Assembly (NCBI RefSeq): GCF_020281205.1
Contig: NZ_JACXZC010000030.1
Coordinates: 1-35,181 of the forward strand
Length of the DNA: 35,181 nucleotides
Direction of reading: 5' to 3'
Source: Empedobacter stercoris
GTDB lineage: Bacteria; Bacteroidota; Bacteroidia; Flavobacteriales; Weeksellaceae
Shown here piece after piece: positions 3,326 through 35,033 of this stretch. Every line of letters begins with the position of its first letter. The first letter of the stretch is position 1. Under the pieces are notes generated by a model that saw only the letters and a program-made list of their open reading frames with translations, searched no databases and was not told the origin of the DNA. The translations under genes and the position numbers were made by a program.

Positions 3326-4120
3326 ATGCAAACTGAAAAAGTTGTAGAATATATTGTTTCTTGGTTGAAAGATTATTTGGAGACAGCACACCAAAAAGGC
3401 TTTGTGATTGGAATTTCGGGCGGAATAGATTCGGCTGTAACCTCAACACTTTGTGCGATGACAGGTTATCCTTTACTTAATTTGGAAATGCCTATTCACC
3501 AAGAAAAAAATCAAGCAGATAGAGCTAAACGTCATATCGAATGGCTGAACGAACAATTTTCTTCACCAATTGATTCAATAGAAGTTGATTTAACAACCAC
3601 TTTTGATGCAATGGTCTCGGCTTTACCAAAAACGGAAACAACAGATAAAGTGAATTTAGCTTTAGCTAATACGCGTGCTCGTTTGCGTATGACAACACTT
3701 TATTATTTTGCTGGTTTACACAATTATTTGGTTGCAGGAACTGGAAATAAAGTCGAAGATTTTGGCGTTGGTTTTTATACAAAATATGGTGATGGTGGTG
3801 TAGATCTTAGTCCAATTGCTGATTTGATGAAATCGGAAGTGTATGAAATTGCACGCTTTTTAGGAATCAATACGGATATTCAAAAAGCTAAACCAACCGA
3901 TGGTTTGTTTGGTGATGATCGTTCGGATGAAGATCAATTGGGAGCAAATTATGATGAATTGGAATGGGCGATGAAAGCGAAAGAAGCTGGACAAACTGCA
4001 GATGATTTTGAAGGTCGAGAAAAAGAAGTTTTCGAAATTTATTCGAGATTAAATCGAATCAATCAACATAAAATGGTTCCAATTCCGATTTGTGATATTC
4101 CTGAGGAGTTGATGAAGTAA
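3326..4120 (+). CDS. nadE: NH3-dependent NAD+ synthetase
   Basis: A 264-residue enzyme that amidates deamido-NAD+ to NAD+ using ATP, the last step of NAD synthesis, in the cytosol. The PP-loop ATP pyrophosphatase motif SGGIDS is at residues 31-36. The signature GTGNKVEDFGVGFYTKYGDG, followed by DLSPIADLMKSEVYEIARFLGI, is typical of NadE. There is no N-terminal glutaminase domain, so it is the short form that uses free ammonia or an amidotransferase partner. It is divergent from gldB, as in F. johnsoniae. The stop codon is followed 3 bases later by a heptanucleotide repeat and then a terminator. Confidence 0.95.
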   Translation: MQTEKVVEYIVSWLKDYLETAHQKGFVIGISGGIDSAVTSTLCAMTGYPLLNLEMPIHQEKNQADRAKRHIEWLNEQFSSPIDSIEVDLTTTFDAMVSALPKTETTDKVNLALANTRARLRMTTLYYFAGLHNYLVAGTGNKVEDFGVGFYTKYGDGGVDLSPIADLMKSEVYEIARFLGINTDIQKAKPTDGLFGDDRSDEDQLGANYDELEWAMKAKEAGQTADDFEGREKEVFEIYSRLNRINQHKMVPIPICDIPEELMK

Positions 4121-4123
4121 GTT

Positions 4124-4202
4124 GCGGTAAGCGGTAAGCGGTAAGCGGTAAGCGGTAAGCGGTAAGCGGTAAGCGGTAAGCGGTAAGCGGTAAGCGGTAA
4201 GC
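4124..4202 (+). repeat. (GCGGTAA)11 heptanucleotide tandem repeat
   Basis: Eleven perfect copies of GCGGTAA from 4124 to 4200, followed by a partial GC. It starts 3 bases after the nadE stop codon and ends 20 bases before the nadE terminator, so it would be transcribed as the 3' untranslated region. It is far more GC-rich than its surroundings. A perfect array of this length should be prone to slippage and copy-number variation. Because seven is not a multiple of three, it would shift frame if ever translated. Confidence 0.97.
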
Positions 4203-26702: not shown

Positions 26703-27560
26703 ATGAATACATTAAAAATAGCCATTCAAAAAAGCGGACGATTAAGTGAAAAGTCGCTCGAATTATTAAAAGATTGCGGAATAAAAATTTCTACAAGTAA
26801 TCGAAAATTAAGAACCGAATCTCCAAATTTCCCTATCGAAGTTTTATTCTTACGCGACGACGATATTCCACAATATGTAGAACAAGGCGTTGCTGATATA
26901 GGAATTTTAGGTGAAAATGAAGTTTGGGAAAAAGATAAAAATGTTACACAAATTCGTCAATTAGGTTTTGCGAATTGTAAAATGTGTTTGGCTATTCCAA
27001 AAGACGAAGAATATACTGATTTATCGTTTTTTAAAAACAAAAAAATCGCTACCTCTTATCCTAAAATTCTTTCAAACTTCTTTCAAAAAAAAGGAATTAA
27101 CGTAAAGATTGAAGAAATTGGGGGTAGTGTAGAAATCGCTCCAAGCATAGGTTTAGCAAATGCCATATTTGATATTGTTTCAACAGGTTCAACTTTACTA
27201 ACAAATGGATTAAAACAAGTAGAAACCGTAGTTGAATCTCAAGCTGTTTTAGTTGCTAATCAAAATTTAGATGAACAAAAGAAAGCTATTTTAAATCGAT
27301 TATTATTTAGAATTGAAGCCGTAAAACAATCTTTCGAAAACAAATACATCTTACTAAATGCCCCAAACGAAAAATTAGAAGAAATCATTGCTCTTTTACC
27401 AGGAATGAAGTCACCAACAGTTTTACCATTAGCACAAGAAGGTTGGTCGTCAATCCACACTGTAATTAAAGAAGATACATTTTGGGACATCATCGAACAA
27501 TTAAAAGCTTTCGGTGCTGAAGGTATTTTAGTATTGGAAATTGAGAAAATGATTTTATAG
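26703..27560 (+). CDS. hisG: ATP phosphoribosyltransferase, long form
   Basis: A 285-residue enzyme that joins ATP and PRPP to give phosphoribosyl-ATP, the committed and feedback-inhibited step of histidine synthesis. It starts MNTLKIAIQKSGRLSEKSLE, has the periplasmic-binding-like fold with GVADIGILGENEVWE and the PRPP-binding loop IVSTGSTLLTNGL. The C-terminal ACT-like regulatory domain (about 210-285, ILLNAPNEKLEEIIALLPGM) makes it the long form, so HisZ is not needed. It is the first structural gene after the attenuator. Confidence 0.96.
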   Translation: MNTLKIAIQKSGRLSEKSLELLKDCGIKISTSNRKLRTESPNFPIEVLFLRDDDIPQYVEQGVADIGILGENEVWEKDKNVTQIRQLGFANCKMCLAIPKDEEYTDLSFFKNKKIATSYPKILSNFFQKKGINVKIEEIGGSVEIAPSIGLANAIFDIVSTGSTLLTNGLKQVETVVESQAVLVANQNLDEQKKAILNRLLFRIEAVKQSFENKYILLNAPNEKLEEIIALLPGMKSPTVLPLAQEGWSSIHTVIKEDTFWDIIEQLKAFGAEGILVLEIEKMIL

Positions 27561-27679
27561 TGTTGATGTGCTTAAGTTGTTAAGTTCATAAGTAGTTATT
27601 TATATAAAGAATAAAAAAACACTTACAAACCTTAAAGACTTATAAACTTAAACACTTTATAACATAAAAACTAAAAAAG
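27561..27679 (+). repeat. Degenerate inverted-repeat array, hisG-hisD gap
   Basis: The left part has words such as CTTAAGTTGTTAAGTTC and the right part has CTTAAAGACTTATAAACTT and CTTAAACACTTTATAACAT, roughly the reverse complement. The array runs to about 10 bases before the hisD ATG. No gene is seen. Confidence 0.8.
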
Positions 27680-28963
27680 ATGCAAACATACAACAAACCA
27701 GAATACTCAGATTGGTCAACTTTAACATCTCGACCAACAAAAGAAGCACAAGATTTACAAAAAATCGTTTTGGACGTTTTTGATAAAATTCAAATTGAAA
27801 AAGATCAAGCTTTAATCAACTTTACAGAAGAATTTGACAAAGTAAGAATATCGTACTTAGAAGTCTCTACTGAAGAAATTGAAGAAGCGAAAAATTTAAT
27901 TTCTGAAGAGTTAAAACAAGCCATCCAATTAGCAGCTACCAATATTGAAAAATTTCACAAAGCGCAACGCGAAGAAATCAAAATGATCGAAACCACAAAA
28001 GGTGTAAATTGTTGGAGAGAATCTCGTGGAATCGAAAATGTCGGAATTTATATTCCAGGCGGAACAGCACCTTTGTTTTCAACAACACTAATGTTAGGAA
28101 TTCCTGCGAAATTAGCTAATTGTCAAAACATTATTTTGTGTACACCTCCCAATAAAGAAGGAAAAATTCACCCTTCGATTTTATATACAGCCAACTTAAT
28201 CGGAATTGATAAAATCTATAAAGTTGGCGGAATTCAAGCCATTGGCGCATTAACTTTTGGAACAGAAACGATTCAGAAAGTGGATAAAATTTTCGGTCCA
28301 GGAAACCAATATGTAACGGCAGCCAAACAAGTTGCGCAAAATTTTGGTGTAGCAATCGATATGCCTGCGGGTCCAAGTGAAGTTTTAGTTATTGCAGATG
28401 AAACTTCGGTTCCGAAATATGTCGCAGCAGATTTACTTTCTCAGGCTGAACACGGCATCGACTCACAAGTGATTTTATTGACAACTAATCAGCAAACTTT
28501 AAAAGAAACAATTGTTGAATTACAATCTCAAATAGAACTTTTACCAAGAAGAGAATTAGCAGCAAAAGCTTTAGAAAATTCGAGAGGAATTGTTCTTAAT
28601 TCAATTGAAGAATGTATAGCTTTCTCTAATATTTATGCACCAGAGCACTTAATTTTTGCTTGCGAAACAGCCGAAAATTATCTTGATAAAATCATTAACG
28701 CAGGATCTGTTTTCTTAGGAAATTACTCATGCGAATCGGCAGGAGATTACGCTTCTGGAACCAATCACACGTTGCCAACGAATGGCTATGCGAAGAATTA
28801 TTCAGGAGTTTCTTTAGACAGTTTCATCAAGAAAATTACGTTCCAAAAATTATCAGCAGAAGGAATTCAAAATATTGGTCCTGCTATCGAATTTATGGCG
28901 GAAGCTGAAGAATTATTTGCACACAAAAATGCGGTGACGCTAAGATTATTAGACTTGAAATAA
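27680..28963 (+). CDS. hisD: Histidinol dehydrogenase
   Basis: A 427-residue NAD+- and zinc-dependent enzyme that oxidises histidinol to histidine in two steps, the last reactions of the pathway. Visible family motifs: ENVGIYIPGGTAPLFSTTLM, VDKIFGPGNQYVTAAKQ, DMPAGPSEVLVIADE, the catalytic region LSQAEHGIDSQ, IYAPEHLIFACE and GDYASGTNHTLPTNGYA, which carries the conserved His/Asp zinc-site residues. The length is normal. It lies between two degenerate repeat arrays and shares the operon with hisG and hisC. Confidence 0.97.
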   Translation: MQTYNKPEYSDWSTLTSRPTKEAQDLQKIVLDVFDKIQIEKDQALINFTEEFDKVRISYLEVSTEEIEEAKNLISEELKQAIQLAATNIEKFHKAQREEIKMIETTKGVNCWRESRGIENVGIYIPGGTAPLFSTTLMLGIPAKLANCQNIILCTPPNKEGKIHPSILYTANLIGIDKIYKVGGIQAIGALTFGTETIQKVDKIFGPGNQYVTAAKQVAQNFGVAIDMPAGPSEVLVIADETSVPKYVAADLLSQAEHGIDSQVILLTTNQQTLKETIVELQSQIELLPRRELAAKALENSRGIVLNSIEECIAFSNIYAPEHLIFACETAENYLDKIINAGSVFLGNYSCESAGDYASGTNHTLPTNGYAKNYSGVSLDSFIKKITFQKLSAEGIQNIGPAIEFMAEAEELFAHKNAVTLRLLDLK

Positions 28964-29088
28964 GTTGATAAGTGAGTAAGTTTTTAAGTGGTTTAGAATT
29001 GTGGTATAAATAACTTAAAAACCTATCAACATAAGCATTTAACAACTTAAAAACCTGTCAACATAAACACTTAATAACTTAAAATAAA
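28964..29088 (+). repeat. Degenerate inverted-repeat array, hisD-hisC gap
   Basis: The left arm (28964 to about 29005) has GATAAGTGAGTAAGTTTTTA. The right arm (about 29026-29088) has AACTTAAAAACCTATCAACA repeated with variation (AACTTAAAAACCTGTCAACA) and then AAACACTTAATAACTT. The two right-arm copies are about 38 bases apart. It ends at the hisC ATG. Confidence 0.85.
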
Positions 29089-30135
29089 ATGTTCAACATA
29101 AACAAAATCATTCGTCCCAACGTAAAAGCAATGAAAGCGTATTCATCTGCTCGCGACGAATTTCAAGATATTAATGACGATTTCGTTTTCTTAGATGCCA
29201 ACGAAAATCCTTTCAACAATGATGGTTTAAATCGTTATCCAGATCCTTTACAACGCAATGTAAAATCGATTTTAAGCGAAATTAAAAACTTTCCTACGGA
29301 TCAGATTTTATTAGGAAACGGAAGCGACGAAGTTTTGGATTTAATTTTCCGTGCGTTCTGCGAACCGAATCAAGATAACGTTATTGCGATTTCTCCATCT
29401 TACGGAATGTACGGTGTTTTAGCGAATTTAAATGCTGTTGAATACCGTAAATCATTATTAAATGAAGAAGATTTTAAGCCCAACATCGAAGATATTTTCG
29501 CGAAAGTGGATGAAAATACAAAAATGATTTTCTTGTGTTCGCCTAACAATCCAACAGGAAAAATCATTAAAAGAGAAGCGATTTTAGAAATTGTAAATCG
29601 TTTCAACGGATTGGTAATTATCGATGAAGCCTATATTGATTTTGCGACTGAGCCATCTTGGATCGAAGAGATCAACAATTATCCAAATGTCATCGTAACA
29701 CAAACGTTATCAAAAGCCGTTGGTTTAGCCGGAATTCGTTTAGGAATTTTATATGCCTCACAAGAAATTGTAGAGGTCTTAAATAAAATTAAACCGCCTT
29801 ATAACATCAATCAATTGACACAATTAAAAGCGATTGAAATTTTAAGCGATTACGAAAAAGTGGTAGCAGCAACAAACACGATTGTTCAACAAAAAGAAGT
29901 TTTAGAAAATGCGTTAACGGAGATTTCTTTTGTCGAAAAAATCTATCCAAGTGATTCGAACTTTATTTTAATTAAAGTGGATAATGCAAATAAGCGCTAC
30001 GACCAATTAGTTGAAAAAGGAATTGTCATCCGTAACCGTAACAATGACGATTTATGTAAGAATTGTTTGAGAATTACTGTTGGAACGGAAGAGGAAAATG
30101 GAATTTTGTTAGAGGTACTTAAGGGTTTTGATTAG
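29089..30135 (+). CDS. hisC: Histidinol-phosphate aminotransferase
   Basis: A 348-residue class I/II PLP-dependent aminotransferase that converts imidazole-acetol phosphate and glutamate to histidinol phosphate. Motifs: DANENPFN and RYPDPLQ near the N-terminus, LLGNGSDEVLDLIFRAFCEP, the FLCSPNNPTGKI loop, IDEAYIDFA, and the PLP lysine in TLSKAVGLAGIRLG. The C-terminus has RITVGTEEEN. The start MFNINKIIRPNVKAMKAYSS is typical of the flavobacterial enzyme. Confidence 0.96.
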   Translation: MFNINKIIRPNVKAMKAYSSARDEFQDINDDFVFLDANENPFNNDGLNRYPDPLQRNVKSILSEIKNFPTDQILLGNGSDEVLDLIFRAFCEPNQDNVIAISPSYGMYGVLANLNAVEYRKSLLNEEDFKPNIEDIFAKVDENTKMIFLCSPNNPTGKIIKREAILEIVNRFNGLVIIDEAYIDFATEPSWIEEINNYPNVIVTQTLSKAVGLAGIRLGILYASQEIVEVLNKIKPPYNINQLTQLKAIEILSDYEKVVAATNTIVQQKEVLENALTEISFVEKIYPSDSNFILIKVDNANKRYDQLVEKGIVIRNRNNDDLCKNCLRITVGTEEENGILLEVLKGFD

Positions 30136-30407
30136 TATGTGATTAAGTTAGTAAGTTTTTATGTGGTAAAGTGTGCAAGTTATGAAGTGTTTATGTGGTA
30201 GAGTGTCTAAGTTGGTTTTATCTCTGATTATTAAATATTTAAACTTACTAACTTAAAAACTTACTAACCGTACAACTTAAAAACATACAAACTGAACAAC
30301 GTACTAACTTAAAAACCTATTAACTTGACAGTGTCCAACATAAAAACTAAGAAACTTAAAAACATTTTTCTTAACTTAATATCTATCAAACCTTAAAACC
30401 AAATAAT
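30136..30407 (+). repeat. Longest degenerate repeat array, hisC to four-helix-bundle gene
   Basis: This 272-base gap has a left half of G/T-type words (GATTAAGTTAGTAAGTTTTT, GTGTCTAAGTTGG) to about 30215 and a right half of words such as AAACTTACTAACTTAAAAAC, TACTAACTTAAAAACC and AAACTTAAAAACAT to about 30400. It is roughly twice the length of most other his gaps. No open frame is seen in it. Confidence 0.85.
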
Positions 30408-30764
30408 ATGGGCCTAGTTTATGATTTAAATTTATGGAAAGAAGCGCATCAACTTGTTTTGGAAGTGTATAAAACTGTCGATAAATTTCCTAAATCAGAA
30501 ATATTTGCATTATCAAGTCAAATGAAACGCTGTGCAGTTTCTGTTCCGGCAAACATTGTTGAAGGATATAAAAAACAAACGAAAGCTCATCAAATCCATT
30601 ATTATAACATTTCGGATACATCTTTAGAAGAACTGAAGTATTACTTTTTACTTTCTAGAGATTTGAAATATATAACTGAAAAAGAATACAAAATATTGAT
30701 TAGTAAAAGTGAAGAAGTTGGAAAAATGATTACAGGTTATATTAAACATATCAAAAGTAAATAA
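30408..30764 (+). CDS. S23/Avd-like four-helix-bundle protein
   Basis: A 118-residue protein matching the four-helix-bundle family first known from 23S rRNA intervening sequences (S23/IVP) and related to Avd of diversity-generating retroelements. Family features: LWKEAHQLVLEVYKTVDKFP, SEIFALSSQMKRCAVSVPAN, IVEGYKKQTKAHQIHYYNIS, LEELKYYFLLSRDLKYI and SEEVGKMITGYIKHIK. These proteins form pentameric barrels and may bind nucleic acid; their cellular role is unknown. It is unrelated to histidine synthesis, yet lies between hisC and hisB in the same direction and is flanked by the A/T-rich arrays. Its frame is intact. No reverse transcriptase is present. Confidence 0.85.
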   Translation: MGLVYDLNLWKEAHQLVLEVYKTVDKFPKSEIFALSSQMKRCAVSVPANIVEGYKKQTKAHQIHYYNISDTSLEELKYYFLLSRDLKYITEKEYKILISKSEEVGKMITGYIKHIKSK

Positions 30765-30803
30765 CTTAAAAACTTCATCACCTAATCACTTACAAACTAA
30801 AAA
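30765..30803 (+). repeat. Short array before hisB
   Basis: Only right-arm type words remain here (AACTTAAAAACTTCATCACC then AATCACTTACAAACT), ending at the hisB ATG. The matching left arm lies before the four-helix-bundle gene. Confidence 0.7.
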
Positions 30804-31937
30804 ATGAAAAAAGTACTTTTTATAGATAGAGATGGAACAATGATTTTAGAGCCGGCTGACTATCAAGTCGACAGCGTTTCGAAATTAGAATTCTATCCAG
30901 AAACATTTACTTATTTAGGGAAAATTGCGAAAGAATTGGATTACGAATTAGCGATGGTAACGAACCAAGATGGTTTAGGAACGCCAGCAAATCCAGAAGA
31001 ATTATTTTGGCCGATTCAGAATTTCGTAGTAAAAGCATTCGAAAATGAAGGAGTGAAATTTGAAGATATTTTCATCGATAAAACGTTTGCACACGAAAAT
31101 GCACCGACACGTAAACCTGGAACCGCTTTATTGACTAAATACATCAATAATCCGGCATACGATTTAGCAAATTCGTTTGTAATCGGAGACCGAATTACAG
31201 ATGTGAAATTAGCACAGAATTTAGGAGCAAAAGGAATTTTTATTGCAAATGACGAAGCATTAGGAGCAGACGAAATCCAAGATAACGAAGGTTTAAACGA
31301 AGCGATTGCATTAAAAACAACATCGTGGAAAGCGATTTACGAGTTCTTAAAATTACAAAATCGTACGGCTTCTATTGTTCGTAACACAAACGAAACAAAG
31401 ATTAAAATCGATTTAAACTTAGACGGAACAGGAAAATCAGATATTTCGACTGGTTTACACTTTTTCGATCATATGTTAGATCAAATTGCACGTCACGGAC
31501 AAATGGATTTAGTGATTAAAGTGGATGGGGATTTAGAAGTTGACGAACACCATACGATTGAAGATACTGCCATTGCTTTAGGTGAAGTTTTTGCACAAGC
31601 TTTAGGAAATAAATTAGGAATCGAGCGCTATGGCTTCACTTTACCAATGGATGATTGTTTAGCGCAAGCGGCAATTGATTTTGGAGGAAGAAACTGGTTG
31701 GTTTGGGAAGCGGAATTTAAACGCGAAATGATTGGTCAAATGCCAACAGAAATGTTCTATCACTTCTTTAAATCGTTTACAGACGGTGCAAAAGCGAACT
31801 TAAATATCAAAGCGGAAGGAACAAACGAACACCACAAAATCGAAGCGATTTTTAAAGCGTTTGCGAAAGCGATTAAAGTGGCGGTAAAACGTGATCCAGA
31901 AAAAATGATTTTACCATCAACAAAAGGACTTTTGTAA
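30804..31937 (+). CDS. hisB: Bifunctional histidinol-phosphatase / IGP dehydratase
   Basis: A 377-residue fusion. The N-terminal HAD phosphatase (about 1-165) has the catalytic DRDGT with D8 and D10, VTNQDGLGT, and [17 protein letters not shown]; it dephosphorylates histidinol phosphate. The C-terminal imidazoleglycerol-phosphate dehydratase (about 185-377) has metal-binding motifs [28 protein letters not shown] and [16 protein letters not shown]. The fused form is like that of enterobacteria and many Bacteroidota. It is preceded by a short array and followed by a longer one. Confidence 0.96.
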
Positions 31938-32063
31938 TAGTTTTTAAGTTGTAAAGTTATGAAGTGATAAAGTTATTTGTTGGTTTAAGACTTAAAATCT
32001 AACCACTATTTAACTTACAAACATTATCACTTATCAACATAAAAACTTAACCACTCAAATAAT
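31938..32063 (+). repeat. Degenerate inverted-repeat array, hisB-hisH gap
   Basis: The left part has TTTTTAAGTTGTAAAGTTAT and GAAGTGATAAAGTTA; the right part has TATTTAACTTACAAACATTA and TATCAACATAAAAACTTAA, roughly complementary. It ends about 12 bases before the hisH ATG. Confidence 0.83.
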
Positions 32064-32642
32064 ATGATAGCAATAGTAAAATATAACGCAGGAAATGTAA
32101 AATCGGTTTACAATGCGGTAACTCGTTTGGGTTACAAAGCGGTAATTACAGATGATTTTGAAACCTTGCAAAATGTAGACAAAGTCATTTTTCCAGGTGT
32201 GGGAGAAGCGAGTTCGGCTATGACTTATCTAAAAGAAAAAGGATTGGACGAAGTCATCAAAAACTTAAAACAACCCACTTTAGGAATTTGTTTAGGTCAG
32301 CAATTGATGTGTGCTTTTTCGGAAGAAGGAAATACAGAGTGTTTAGGAATTTTTCCCATTCAAGTCAAGTTATTTCCATCAACTGAAATCGTTCCACACA
32401 TGGGGTGGAATATCATTTATGACTTAAAAACGTCTTTGTTTAACGGAATCGAAGAAAACTCGGACATCTATTATGTTCACAGTTTTTATTGTGAGAATTC
32501 AGAATTTACGATTGCGAAAACCAACTATATTCTAGAATATTCAGCTTCTTTAAATAAAGATAATTTTTACGCGACTCAATTTCATCCAGAAAAATCAGCT
32601 GGAATTGGAGAACAAATTTTAAAGAACTTTTTGTCTTTATAG
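32064..32642 (+). CDS. hisH: Imidazole glycerol phosphate synthase, glutaminase subunit HisH
   Basis: A 192-residue class I glutamine amidotransferase that supplies ammonia to HisF. The nucleophile is C76 in GICLGQQLM; the His/Glu of the triad are in ATQFHPEKS near the C-terminus, and VIFPGVGEASSAM forms the oxyanion region. It starts MIAIVKYNAGNVKSVYNAV. It works as a heterodimer with HisF, whose gene lies two genes downstream. Confidence 0.96.
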   Translation: MIAIVKYNAGNVKSVYNAVTRLGYKAVITDDFETLQNVDKVIFPGVGEASSAMTYLKEKGLDEVIKNLKQPTLGICLGQQLMCAFSEEGNTECLGIFPIQVKLFPSTEIVPHMGWNIIYDLKTSLFNGIEENSDIYYVHSFYCENSEFTIAKTNYILEYSASLNKDNFYATQFHPEKSAGIGEQILKNFLSL

Positions 32643-32839
32643 TTTGTCAGTTATGAAGTGATAAGGTTATTAAGTTGTAAAATTTTATGTTCAAAAGTTA
32701 ATCCCCATTAATTGAAGAACACAATAACTAAAAAACTTACAAACACAATAACTGAAACACTTAAAAACATAATAACTTAAACACTTAAAAACACAATAAC
32801 TTAAACACTTAAAAACATAATAACTTAAAAACTAAAAAC
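32643..32839 (+). repeat. Array with 24-bp tandem repeat, hisH-hisA gap
   Basis: The left part (32643 to about 32700) has GAAGTGATAAGGTTATTAAG and similar G/T-type words. From 32726 to 32839 there is a 24-bp tandem repeat, four full copies (starting at 32726, 32750, 32774, 32798) and an 18-base partial copy. The core is AACTTAAACACTTAAAAAC followed by AYAAT. The last two full copies differ at one base; the first is the most diverged. The array ends exactly at the hisA ATG. Confidence 0.92.
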
Positions 32840-33559
32840 ATGAGAATCATCCCAGCTATAGATATTATCGACGGAAAATGCGTTCGTTTATCACAAGGCG
32901 ATTACAATACAAAAAAAACATACAATAACAATCCATTAGAAGTTGCAAAAGAATTCGAAGATTATGGCATCGAATATTTACATTTAGTAGATTTAGATGG
33001 TGCAAAATCAATGCAAATCATTAATTATAAAACCTTAGAATTAATTGCTTCTAAAACCAATTTAAAAGTTGACTTTGGAGGTGGAATTAAGGCGGATGAT
33101 GATATTAGAATTGCTTTTGAATGTGGTGCAGACCAAATTACAGGTGGAAGTATTGCTGTTCAAAATCCAACTTTATTCGAAAAATGGATTGTTCAATACG
33201 GGAACGAAAAAATTATTTTAGGTGCCGATGCAAAAGATCGAAAAGTTGCCACGCATGGTTGGTTAGAAACTTCTGAAATAGATGTCATTGATTTCATTCA
33301 AGAATACAAAGCGAAAGGAATTGATTATGTTATTTGTACAGATATTGCTAAAGACGGGATGTTAGAAGGAGCTTCGAATGACTTGTACACCGAAATTCTA
33401 GCAAAAGCAGACGTTAAATTAATTGCTTCTGGAGGAATTTCTTGCATAGATGATTTAATTAAAGTAAAAGAATTAGGTTGCGAAGGTGCAATTCTTGGTA
33501 AAGCAATTTATGAAGGAAGAATCCAATTAAAAGATTTGTCTACGTTGATTAGTAAGTAA
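32840..33559 (+). CDS. hisA: Phosphoribosyl-formimino-AICAR-phosphate isomerase HisA
   Basis: A 239-residue (beta/alpha)8 barrel that isomerises ProFAR to PRFAR. The start [20 protein letters not shown] has the catalytic Asp in PAIDI. The second catalytic Asp is in [12 protein letters not shown]; phosphate-binding motifs are FGGGIK and ASGGIS. It starts directly after the last unit of the 24-bp tandem repeat, so its ribosome binding region is made of repeat sequence. Confidence 0.96.
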
Positions 33560-33672
33560 GTTAGTAAGTGGTAAAGTGTTTAAGTTAGTAAGTTTTTAAA
33601 TATTCCAATGAGCAACTTAAACACTTAATCACTTCAACACCTAAGAATATAAACACTTAAAAACATTAAAAC
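33560..33672 (+). repeat. Degenerate inverted-repeat array, hisA-hisF gap
   Basis: The left part has TTAGTAAGTGGTAAAGTG and TTTAAGTTAGTAAGTTTTTA; the right part has CAACTTAAACACTTAATCAC and AAACACTTAAAAACATT. It runs into the TTG start of hisF. Confidence 0.85.
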
Positions 33673-34425
33673 TTGTTAAAAAAAAGAATCATCCCCTGTC
33701 TCGACATTAAAGATGGAAGAACAGTAAAAGGAGTTAATTTCGAAGGATTACGCGACGCGGGAGATCCAGTGGAATTGGCCAAGAAATATGTAGAAGAAGG
33801 CGCTGACGAATTGGTGTTTTTGGATATTACAGCAACGCTTGAGAAACGCAAAACCTTAGCAGAAATGGTCGAAAAGATTGCAGCAGCGATTAATATTCCA
33901 TTTACAGTTGGTGGCGGAATCAATTCAGTAGAAGATGCTTCGGCTGTGATTCAAGCAGGTGCGGACAAAGTTTCGGTGAATTCTTCTGCAGTGAAAAATC
34001 CTCAATTGGTAGCTGATTTAGCGGCTCGTTTTGGATCCCAATGTGTGGTTGTTGCAGTGGATACACGCGATGTGAACGGTACGCAAAAAGTGTTTGTAAG
34101 CGGTGGAAAAATTGAAACCGAATGGAAAACGTTAGATTGGGTAAAGAAGGTGGAAGAACTAGGAGCTGGTGAAATTCTATTAACCTCAATGGATGGTGAT
34201 GGAACAAAAGCTGGTTTCAAAATTGATATTACAAAAGCGGTTGCTGATGAGGTAAATCTACCAGTGATTGCTTCTGGTGGAGCAGGAAAAATGGAACATT
34301 TTACTGAAATGTTTACCGAAACAAAAGCAAGTGGTGGATTAGCGGCAAGTATTTTTCACTTTGGTGAAATTCCGATTCCGACACTAAAAAGTTATTTAAA
34401 AGAACAAAACATTCCGATACGATGA
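33673..34425 (+). CDS. hisF: Imidazole glycerol phosphate synthase, cyclase subunit HisF
   Basis: A 250-residue (beta/alpha)8 barrel that uses ammonia from HisH to turn PRFAR into IGP and AICAR. The start is TTG at 33673, giving [20 protein letters not shown], which is the exact family N-terminus; no ATG is available nearby. Catalytic Asp residues are D10 (CLDIKDG) and the one in [12 protein letters not shown]. Phosphate motifs TVGGGIN and [10 protein letters not shown] are present. The last codons overlap hisIE by 4 bases (ATGA), the only overlapping pair in this operon. Confidence 0.96.
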
Positions 34426-35033
34426 AAATCGATTTCACAAAAAGTAACGACGGGTTAGTTCCTGTTGTTATTCAAAATTACCTAAACAATCAAGTGTTGA
34501 TGTTGGGTTATATGAACGAAGAAGCATTTGCAAAAACAGAAGAATTAGGAAAAGTAACATTCTATTCGCGTTCAAAAAATAGATTATGGACAAAAGGGGA
34601 AGAATCTGGCAACTTTTTAGAAGTAAAATCAATCGCGATTGATTGCGATAAAGATACGATTTTAATCAAAGCTAAACCTTTTGGACCTACTTGTCATATA
34701 GGTTCTACAACGTGTTTCAACGAAGTTTCGAATCGTGGATTTGTTTATGAATTAGAACAAACGATTAACGATCGAATCGATTTAGCAGAAGATAAAGATT
34801 CGTACACCTATAAGTTATACAATAAAGGAATCAATAAAGTGGCGCAGAAAGTCGGAGAAGAAGCCGTAGAAATTGTTATCGAAGCCAAAGACAATAACGA
34901 CGACTTATTCTTAGGTGAAGCAGCCGATTTAATGTATCACTATTTAATCCTGCTAAAAGCTAAAGGATTCAAATTAGAAGACGTAGAAAACGTTTTAAAA
35001 TCAAGAGAAAACGGTCCAAGAAGACCGGAATAA
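34422..35033 (+). CDS. hisI: Bifunctional phosphoribosyl-AMP cyclohydrolase / phosphoribosyl-ATP pyrophosphatase
   Basis: A 203-residue fusion, often named HisIE. The N-terminal cyclohydrolase (about 1-105) has [31 protein letters not shown], and the metal-binding region [19 protein letters not shown]. The C-terminal pyrophosphatase (about 115-203) has [20 protein letters not shown] and [15 protein letters not shown]. Together they perform steps two and three of the pathway. It is the last gene of the operon, followed by a strong terminator. Confidence 0.96.

Follow-up and report, generated by a model that had tools for sequence, protein, structure and literature searches.

Mirror-image heptamer and octamer arrays around PF05635 genes suggest an undescribed kind of exchangeable DNA insert

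Genes for four-helix-bundle (4HB) proteins of family PF05635 are often flanked, in two bacterial phyla, by mirror-image arrays of short reiterated words, a pattern suggestive of an exchangeable DNA insert not described so far. The window analysed here, a stretch of 35,181 nucleotides (nt) of Empedobacter stercoris (contig NZ_JACXZC010000030.1, positions 1 to 35,181, forward strand), contains a his operon with such arrays in seven of its gaps, two of which enclose a PF05635 gene. The general anatomy is established statistically: an array of 7- or 8-nt words, then either a spacer (solo form) or a PF05635 open reading frame (ORF; full form), then a complementary array. Within the genus, sequence comparison shows gene and both arms to be inherited and swapped as a cassette at fixed operon junctions. 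On balance, we favour the reading that the his gaps belong to a single class of intergenic insert that is akin to intervening sequences (IVSs), provided with exchangeable cassettes and present here in gene-bearing and in solo form. We further infer mobility of the inserts, a role for the protein and derivation of the solo arrays from cassettes.

Arrays in the his operon of the window and its congeners

Each his gap lies between the stop codon of one gene and the start codon of the gene after it, across hisG, hisD, hisC, the 4HB gene, hisB, hisH, hisA and hisF, exactly as delimited in a first-pass annotation made from the letters alone. The seven gaps sum to 991 bp with a GC content of 21-26%; between hisF and hisIE there is no gap and an overlap of 4 nt. 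Simple ORF rules, and no annotation program, served to assign gene starts and neighbours. The features are as follows (TRF, Tandem Repeats Finder; L numbers denote individual loci).

26703..35033, + strand: host his operon hisG, hisD, hisC, (4HB), hisB, hisH, hisA, hisF, hisIE, from Pfam matches
27561..27679, + strand: hisG/hisD gap, solo inverted octamer array (TAAGT words, spacer, ACTTA words); period-8 z 6.3, inverted z 1.7
28964..29088, + strand: hisD/hisC gap, solo inverted octamer array; period-8 z 3.8, inverted z 2.4; empty (-1) in L060 and L069
30136..30407, + strand: hisC/4HB gap, 5' side of the gene-bearing cassette, with left words, spacer and long right-word array; period-8 z 8.4, inverted z 3.2
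30408..30764, + strand: PF05635 four-helix-bundle gene (23S_rRNA_IVP, E 1.8e-36; weaker bAvd match, PF22296, E 5e-16)
30765..30803, + strand: 4HB/hisB gap, 3' arm of the cassette, right words only; duplex with the 5' gap -20.3 kcal/mol
31938..32063, + strand: hisB/hisH gap, solo inverted octamer array; fold z -4.3, period-8 z 3.2; empty (-1) in L060 and L063
32643..32839, + strand: hisH/hisA gap, solo array whose right arm is long and keeps register 8; TRF period 8, 7.4 copies, 70% matches, 32755-32813
33560..33672, + strand: hisA/hisF gap, solo inverted octamer array; period-8 z 8.2, inverted z 4.2, fold z -4.3

A single octamer vocabulary, AACTTANN / NNTAAGTT, is common to all seven gaps, as the first pass had noticed: AGTTTTTA or its complement is present in every one and AACTTAAA in six. 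The first pass overlooked the 8-nt period of these words, together with the PF05635 identity of the gene among them. Of 22 spacings between successive ACTTA words 18 are multiples of 8, as are all seven between TAAGT words; the autocorrelation score peaks at lag 8 in all seven gaps, other lags from 5 to 11 all having z ≤2.1. At the period itself z is at least 3.5 in five gaps and 3.2 and 1.5 in the remaining two, the last being the 39-bp gap. Genome-wide (2.94 Mb), AACTTAAAAAC has 18 copies and the reversed control word 17, so that the his word is clustered, not abundant; nine of the 18 copies lie within the his operon. Measured against dinucleotide shuffles, left-right complementarity of the gaps gives, in order, z = 1.7, 2.4, 3.2, -0.1, 2.6, 1.1 and 4.2: the inversion of the two halves described at first pass is real and uneven, and 30765-30803 does carry right words only, as had been stated. 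The hairpins predicted for the gap transcripts are uneven too, with folding z of -1.6, -2.4, -1.7, -4.3, -1.9 and -4.3 in the six long gaps, on which the fold was run. The order of words in the hisC/4HB gap, left words first and then a long right-word array, makes it look as if an older solo array was there first and the 4HB cassette either entered its right arm or grew out of it.

His operons were compared across 12 congeners and eight outgroups (G numbers denote genomes). In 11 of the congeners HisB is 87-97% identical to that of the window. Their corresponding junctions hold the array, have no insert (-1, -4, 1 or 2 nt) or carry one in other words; the twelfth, G005, with a HisB 60% identical, has a tight operon without gaps. 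The octamer vocabulary of the window recurs at his junctions in G001, G004 and most of G012, a heptamer vocabulary around ACTTAGA in G006, G008, G009 and part of G003, and another around AATCGTA in G007, G010 and one G003 gap; G002 and G011 have weaker arrays. Elsewhere the genes abut: hisB/hisH overlap by 1 nt in L060 and L063, as do hisD/hisC in L060 and L069, hisH/hisA overlap by 4 in L063, hisG/hisD are only 1-2 nt apart in L067-L069, and hisF/hisIE stands at -4 in all seven operons where both genes were found, the window counted. In the outgroup operons of G018, G044 and G050 all gaps are ≤12 nt. Because his arrays appear, vanish and change words among congeners, we take them for inserts, not old regulatory sequence, in line with the first-pass suggestion of a family of proliferating intergenic repeats. 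Over the his gaps of the window and of the 11 congeners with similar HisB, a period-7/8 signal appears in 34 of 56 and a signal at periods 5-6 or 9-10 in none; the same detector finds period 7/8 in 10 of 26 outgroup his gaps. The his-operon 4HB proteins show 92-95% identity in three congeners sharing the octamer words and 45-51% in five other congeners with a tblastn match.

Paired arms around PF05635 genes and their exchange

The 4HB protein of the window has sequence relatives of solved structure in 2gsc (XCC0516, Xanthomonas) and 2rld. S23 and Avd, which are relatives of it, are basic multimers; we know of no established role for PF05635 four-helix-bundle genes. The genome of the window holds seven PF05635 matches, one with an internal stop, and the words at the other 4HB loci differ from the his words. 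Matches occur in 157 of 198 sampled genomes of the phylum Bacteroidota. The ORF is under purifying selection, the ratio of nonsynonymous to synonymous substitution rates (dN/dS) being 0.05-0.13 in all 13 chosen pairs, some of them with saturated dS.

From 110 Flavobacteriales PF05635 loci, two without an ORF in the finder and six duplicates, and no others, were removed to leave 102; a loose 4HB motif, matched by 61 of 108 loci, was applied solely for choosing among overlapping ORFs. A first scan for ACTTA clusters around 30 PF05635 matches had returned one only (L012), because the words differ from locus to locus, as was seen by eye and then by test. Nearly all of the genes (94/102) lie between co-directional genes. 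From the upstream stop codon run G-rich words, and complementary C-rich words lead to the next start codon, in a wording private to the locus; G exceeds C in 74 of 94 5' flanks and C exceeds G in 80 of 94 3' flanks. The arrays are therefore not peculiar to the his operon, since the same anatomy surrounds PF05635 genes in many operons.

The two flanks of a gene match each other far better than those of other loci. Inverted 7-mers common to both flanks number 4.54 for own and 0.65 for other loci (z=27; 102 loci, 2000 permutations), and inverted 5-mers give z=20.0; for control genes of the congener G004 the values are -0.3 with 7-mers (102 of 374 genes) and, with 5-mers, 0.6 (102 random) and -1.0 (102 size-matched). 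RNAduplex energies over the 102 loci are -21.7 kcal/mol for own and -12.1 for other flanks. Relative to dinucleotide shuffles, the flanks are enriched 5.7x at period 7, 2.8x at period 8 and 5.2x at period 14, with 0.57-0.70x at periods 4, 5, 9, 10 and 11. A period-7/8 signal is found in the 60-nt flanks of 73 of the 102 4HB genes on either side and of 29 on both sides; the either-side count is 6 at periods 5/6 and 2 at 9/10. In G004 control genes the signal is at noise level: 29 of 374 have period 7/8 on either side, and other periods give 28 and 26. In G038, a more distant genome, 46 of 295 genes have it; both-side cases number zero in each control. By gaps, the signal is present in 116 of 188 adjoining 4HB genes versus 3 of 119 in G004 and 20 of 143 in G038, the background gaps being co-directional, 25-400 nt long and drawn from 400 kb of each genome.

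Within the genus, a PF05635 gene occupies the junction before a fadA-like (thiolase-like) gene in 12 of 13 genomes and that before an argD-like gene in at least seven; the names fadA, argD and rfbA for host genes at fixed junctions are our assignments from protein starts. We formed 81 within-genus same-site pairs from 12 fadA-site and 6 argD-site loci, with hosts shared between pairs. Word similarity follows 4HB protein identity (rho 0.72) far more closely than host protein identity (rho 0.18); the host gene is 87-100% identical at these sites, 4HB identity is unrelated to it (rho -0.12), and the 5' and 3' arms change in concert (rho 0.56). Thus G009 and G010, whose FadA N-terminal parts are 100% identical, have 4HB proteins of 45% identity and a vocabulary overlap of 0.10, and G006 and G001, with FadA at 96% and 4HB at 98%, overlap by 0.77. 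Since the words track the 4HB protein and not the host gene, gene and arms are exchanged as a unit. At three shared sites, own arms pair at -16.4, -18.7 and -23.4 kcal/mol, and arms crossed with another vocabulary at -9.5, -11.3 and -13.0.

Similar flanks are found beyond the Flavobacteriales set. In 27 further Bacteroidota loci (two still Flavobacteriales; L304 without a start codon found) own duplexes stand at -23.7 and other ones at -16.3 kcal/mol, 13 of 27 are in the top 5%, and shared 6-mers number 5.59 own versus 1.49 other. Among 24 plasmid records with a tblastn match, 16 cyanobacterial ones and one Alteromonas Avd of a diversity-generating retroelement (DGR) were examined. Of the 16 cyanobacterial loci, 13 have an array signal in one flank or both, and after one near-duplicate was dropped the remaining 15 give an own pairing of -33.1 against -19.8; for comparison, 3 of 28 gaps were flagged in 45 kb of one cyanobacterial plasmid. 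DGR records aside, PF05635 genes in plasmid records are annotated merely as 'four helix bundle', 'S23' or 'hypothetical'.

Mechanism and alternative explanations

We propose that the arms could lengthen and stay alike at the DNA level, through slippage of 7/8-nt units and fold-back copying between arms, and that the 4HB protein may act on the folded-back arms, promoting spread or replacement of the insert. Such an action is suggested by its relatives and would be modelled on the 23S rRNA IVS, in which an S23 ORF lies inside the terminal stem. Stop/start junctions would tolerate an insert because nothing is disrupted there, and folding of the arms may draw the stop codon close to the start codon. 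Solo arrays would be gene-less derivatives or products of copying within the operon.

Several observations weigh against an exchangeable insert tied to the 4HB gene. At the level of single loci the pairing is often unremarkable: the own 3' flank is in the top 5% by duplex energy at 51 of the 102 loci and outside it at the other 51, and the -20.3 kcal/mol of the window cassette is matched by 14 of 102 foreign 3' flanks and is not significant alone, complementary flanks as an IVS trait being seen over the 102 loci as a set. Direct 7-mer sharing between PF05635 flanks is also raised, if less (1.59 vs 0.56). The same-site pairs share hosts and are not independent, so that their p-values are only indicative, and at the third shared site two cross pairs have words in common and yet reach only -3.0. 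A search for cassettes transposed to a new site with the words kept found none, five related 4HB pairs of 70-81% identity at different sites having different words. Arrays without a detected 4HB gene are found in the his operon of G010, in several Flavobacterium and some Pedobacter his operons, and, as signal, in the 20 of 143 G038 gaps; TRF on 400 kb of G004 gives 32 period-7 rows, of which 25 fall in one 20-kb stretch (L093) that holds none of the seven PF05635 matches of that genome. Non-adjacent array gaps in other operons are in the top 5% for the local 4HB vocabulary in only 7 of 28 cases. Of the cyanobacterial loci, L310, L316 and L318 are without period signal, and L316, L318 and L319 have an own pairing no better than foreign.

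In 80 named his loci, some truncated, arrays are frequent in Flavobacterium and present in some Pedobacter and others, and a 4HB gene was found in four (tblastn, five queries); a 4HB gene in the operon is therefore not required for arrays. We tested, and reject as a generality, the idea that the gaps of an operon always share the words of the 4HB gene in it (13.8 own versus 12.8 other shared 6-mers), and the his operon is an extreme case of such sharing.

These gene-less arrays bear on a different explanation, which we consider unlikely, that the repeats are passive: 7/8-nt slippage arrays would form anywhere and survive only in free gaps, operon junctions among them, and PF05635 genes would sit in the same tolerant places, so that the association is ecological, not functional. 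Heptamer simple sequence repeats are over-represented in many bacteria, according to the consulted parts of PMC4692102. Besides the G038 gaps, passive repeats have in their favour heptamer arrays that lack a 4HB gene and are in many cases perfect, both in L093 and in the window, where the following feature shows that the first-pass contrast between the his gaps and gaps elsewhere in the window was not fully right.

4124..4202, + strand: perfect heptamer array GCGGTAA x11.3, directly 3' of the stop codon of the gene at 3326-4120; TRF 100% match

It is likely a young array of the same general kind as the his arrays, with another word. Against passive repeats stand the noise-level signal in ordinary G004 flanks, the both-side count of 0/374 and 0/295 in controls versus 29/102 for 4HB genes, and the fact that arms on either side of a ~360-nt ORF match each other and track that ORF, not the host gene. 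In L093 itself, the 25 TRF heptamer rows (L093:6818-19809; G004:C1:2050001-2070000) mark 22 distinct places, with heptamers such as TTCTAAC, GCTTAAC, ATGAATG and TCTAAAA, several of which recur in the same order between small ORFs. L093 looks like a hot spot of young arrays, the perfect arrays there and at 4124-4202 resembling a young stage. The TRF arrays of G004 fall largely outside the co-directional 25-400-nt gaps used for the background count.

Selection at the RNA level is a less probable basis for the arrays. Hairpins would protect, process or translationally couple the his cistrons, with selection keeping the arms complementary, and the first-pass annotation had offered a processing or stability device balancing these cistrons as an alternative. 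The folding z of the six long gaps, the covariation of arms between vocabularies and the extent of the arrays from stop to start codon are all in keeping with such a device, which we nevertheless think improbable. Of the 102 cassettes, 93 had alignable arms, and their mismatches comprise 68 G-U versus 98 A-C; for solo his arrays, of which 62 were chosen among 245 gaps and 56 contribute to the count, the figures are 31 versus 44, and the cross-locus null has 1198 versus 1504 (p 0.39 and 0.64). Selection on RNA pairing is thus unsupported, and the lack of a G-U excess favours DNA-level copying, by slippage and fold-back, over selection on the transcript. In addition, the antisense strand folds better in five of six his gaps, junctions are empty in congeners (-1, -4), arrays come and go and words are not conserved among species. 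Finally, it is very improbable that the 4HB segment is a true 23S-type IVS in mRNA, cut out of the polycistronic transcript by RNase III, with the protein incidental: the same family does lie within complementary ends, as in the Coxiella IVS, but the ORF is kept at the low dN/dS given above, whereas the Coxiella ORF is described as being under reductive evolution (PMC4990558, consulted parts), solo arrays have no ORF and the location is not in rRNA.

Relation to known elements

Heptamer repeats and 23S IVSs are already known; new, within the literature searched, are their link and the exchange as a unit. The 23S IVS of Coxiella burnetii has an S23p ORF in a 28-bp terminal stem and is excised by RNase III, and IVSs with this ORF are sporadic and thought to be horizontally acquired (Warrier 2016, PMC4990558, consulted parts). 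Taken as a set, the inserts described here likewise have an S23/PF05635-type ORF between complementary ends. They differ in lying between operon genes (hisC/hisB in the window), not in a 23S rRNA helix, in ends made of reiterated degenerate 7/8-nt words, in the commonness of gene-less solo copies and in the purifying selection on the ORF. We take them for a variant of IVS-like inserts, one that stands a fair chance of forming a separate class.

Cyanobacterial orphan heptamer repeats have been known since 1990, and cyanobacterial heptanucleotide repeats presumably go by the name STRR. From an STRR-type 7-nt tandem unit the his arrays differ in their period of 8 (the array at 4124-4202 has 7), and in place of a genome-wide consensus word there is a his word clustered in one operon, with other words at other 4HB loci. 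TAACTGA heptamers occur in Beggiatoaceae, cyanobacteria and five Bacteroidetes, most of them close before start codons in the Orange Guaymas genome, and in F. litoralis one reverse set follows a stop codon (MacGregor 2015, PMC4679880), and GGGAATC heptamers of Xanthomonas form 70 inverted pairs in Xcc (Rehm 2015, PMC4692102); the consulted parts of these two papers contain no mention of a PF05635 gene. The seven his gaps have no TAACTGA direct repeats and one single copy. The units of 7 nt and the mostly intergenic position are common to these repeats and ours. As far as the consulted parts go, such reports track one word or word type per genome; here the words are site-specific, the period is 7 or 8, and the arrays are paired in inverted orientation and tied to PF05635 genes.

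REP/RAYT and miniature inverted-repeat transposable elements (MITEs) are short intergenic inverted elements associated with a protein family, with one sequence family per transposase. In our set, by contrast, related 4HB proteins at different sites have unrelated words, and no terminal or palindromic sequence shared among copies, as in MITE or REP, was seen in the different-site vocabularies (Jaccard 0.077 at 70-85% 4HB identity, n=5, and 0.045 at 55-70%, n=120). To the Avd of DGRs the window 4HB protein is related by distant homology (the bAvd match), but no arrays were seen at the one DGR Avd locus that was examined, L323 of Alteromonas. No reverse transcriptase is among the nine his-region proteins scanned, the remainder of the window not having been searched for one.

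A four helix bundle gene of F. columnare between guanylate kinase and adenylyltransferase genes is listed as a phage region in the consulted part of PMC5524665, and the IVP label appears in one figure legend of PMC10910872, likewise consulted in part. A link of PF05635 to heptamer arrays was not found in the consulted parts of PMC4679880, PMC4990558, PMC4692102, PMC6749651, PMC5524665 and PMC10910872, nor was its tie to site-specific inverted heptamer/octamer arrays, or their exchange as a unit, in the literature searched, a limited collection.

Heptamer arrays between genes are on record from several phyla, so far unexplained. The tie to PF05635 gives a protein, a defined substrate and fixed sites (before fadA, argD and rfbA; his junctions), and fixed sites allow insertion, exchange and decay to be followed. 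It also counsels caution, in that what fills an operon gap in these phyla is often an insert and not regulatory sequence. A wider generalization, which we put forward tentatively, would have PF05635 proteins mark widespread selfish or exchangeable intergenic cassettes, at least in Bacteroidota and Cyanobacteria, with self-generated, site-specific inverted 7/8-nt arrays for ends in place of fixed terminal repeats; the cyanobacterial heptamers, TAACTGA and perhaps the Xanthomonas GGGAATC pairs would then be solo remains, and the protein would read the shape or period of the arms, not their sequence.

Small ORFs of other kinds were also met in his junctions. One that we take to be GIY-YIG-like lies at hisC/hisB in L131 and at hisH/hisA in L159; in L131 it is flanked by a CCTGAACTTGTTTCAGGA palindrome and is another small-ORF-plus-repeat insert in operon gaps. 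Three Pedobacter records (L163, L164, L165) have a presumably DUF559-like endonuclease ORF at hisA/hisF, preceded in two of them by CCCCTA...AGGGG repeats, and an ORF of ~140 aa, which we assume to be GNAT-like, occupies hisG/hisD in the Flavobacteriaceae records L136, L140, L147 and L148. PF05635 genes themselves are found within CRISPR-Cas operons (cas10/cmr3, cas6/cas4) in L311, a Picosynechococcus plasmid, and in L315 and L318, likewise cyanobacterial plasmids; L318 has no period signal, and L311 and L315 carry octamer/heptamer arrays on both sides.

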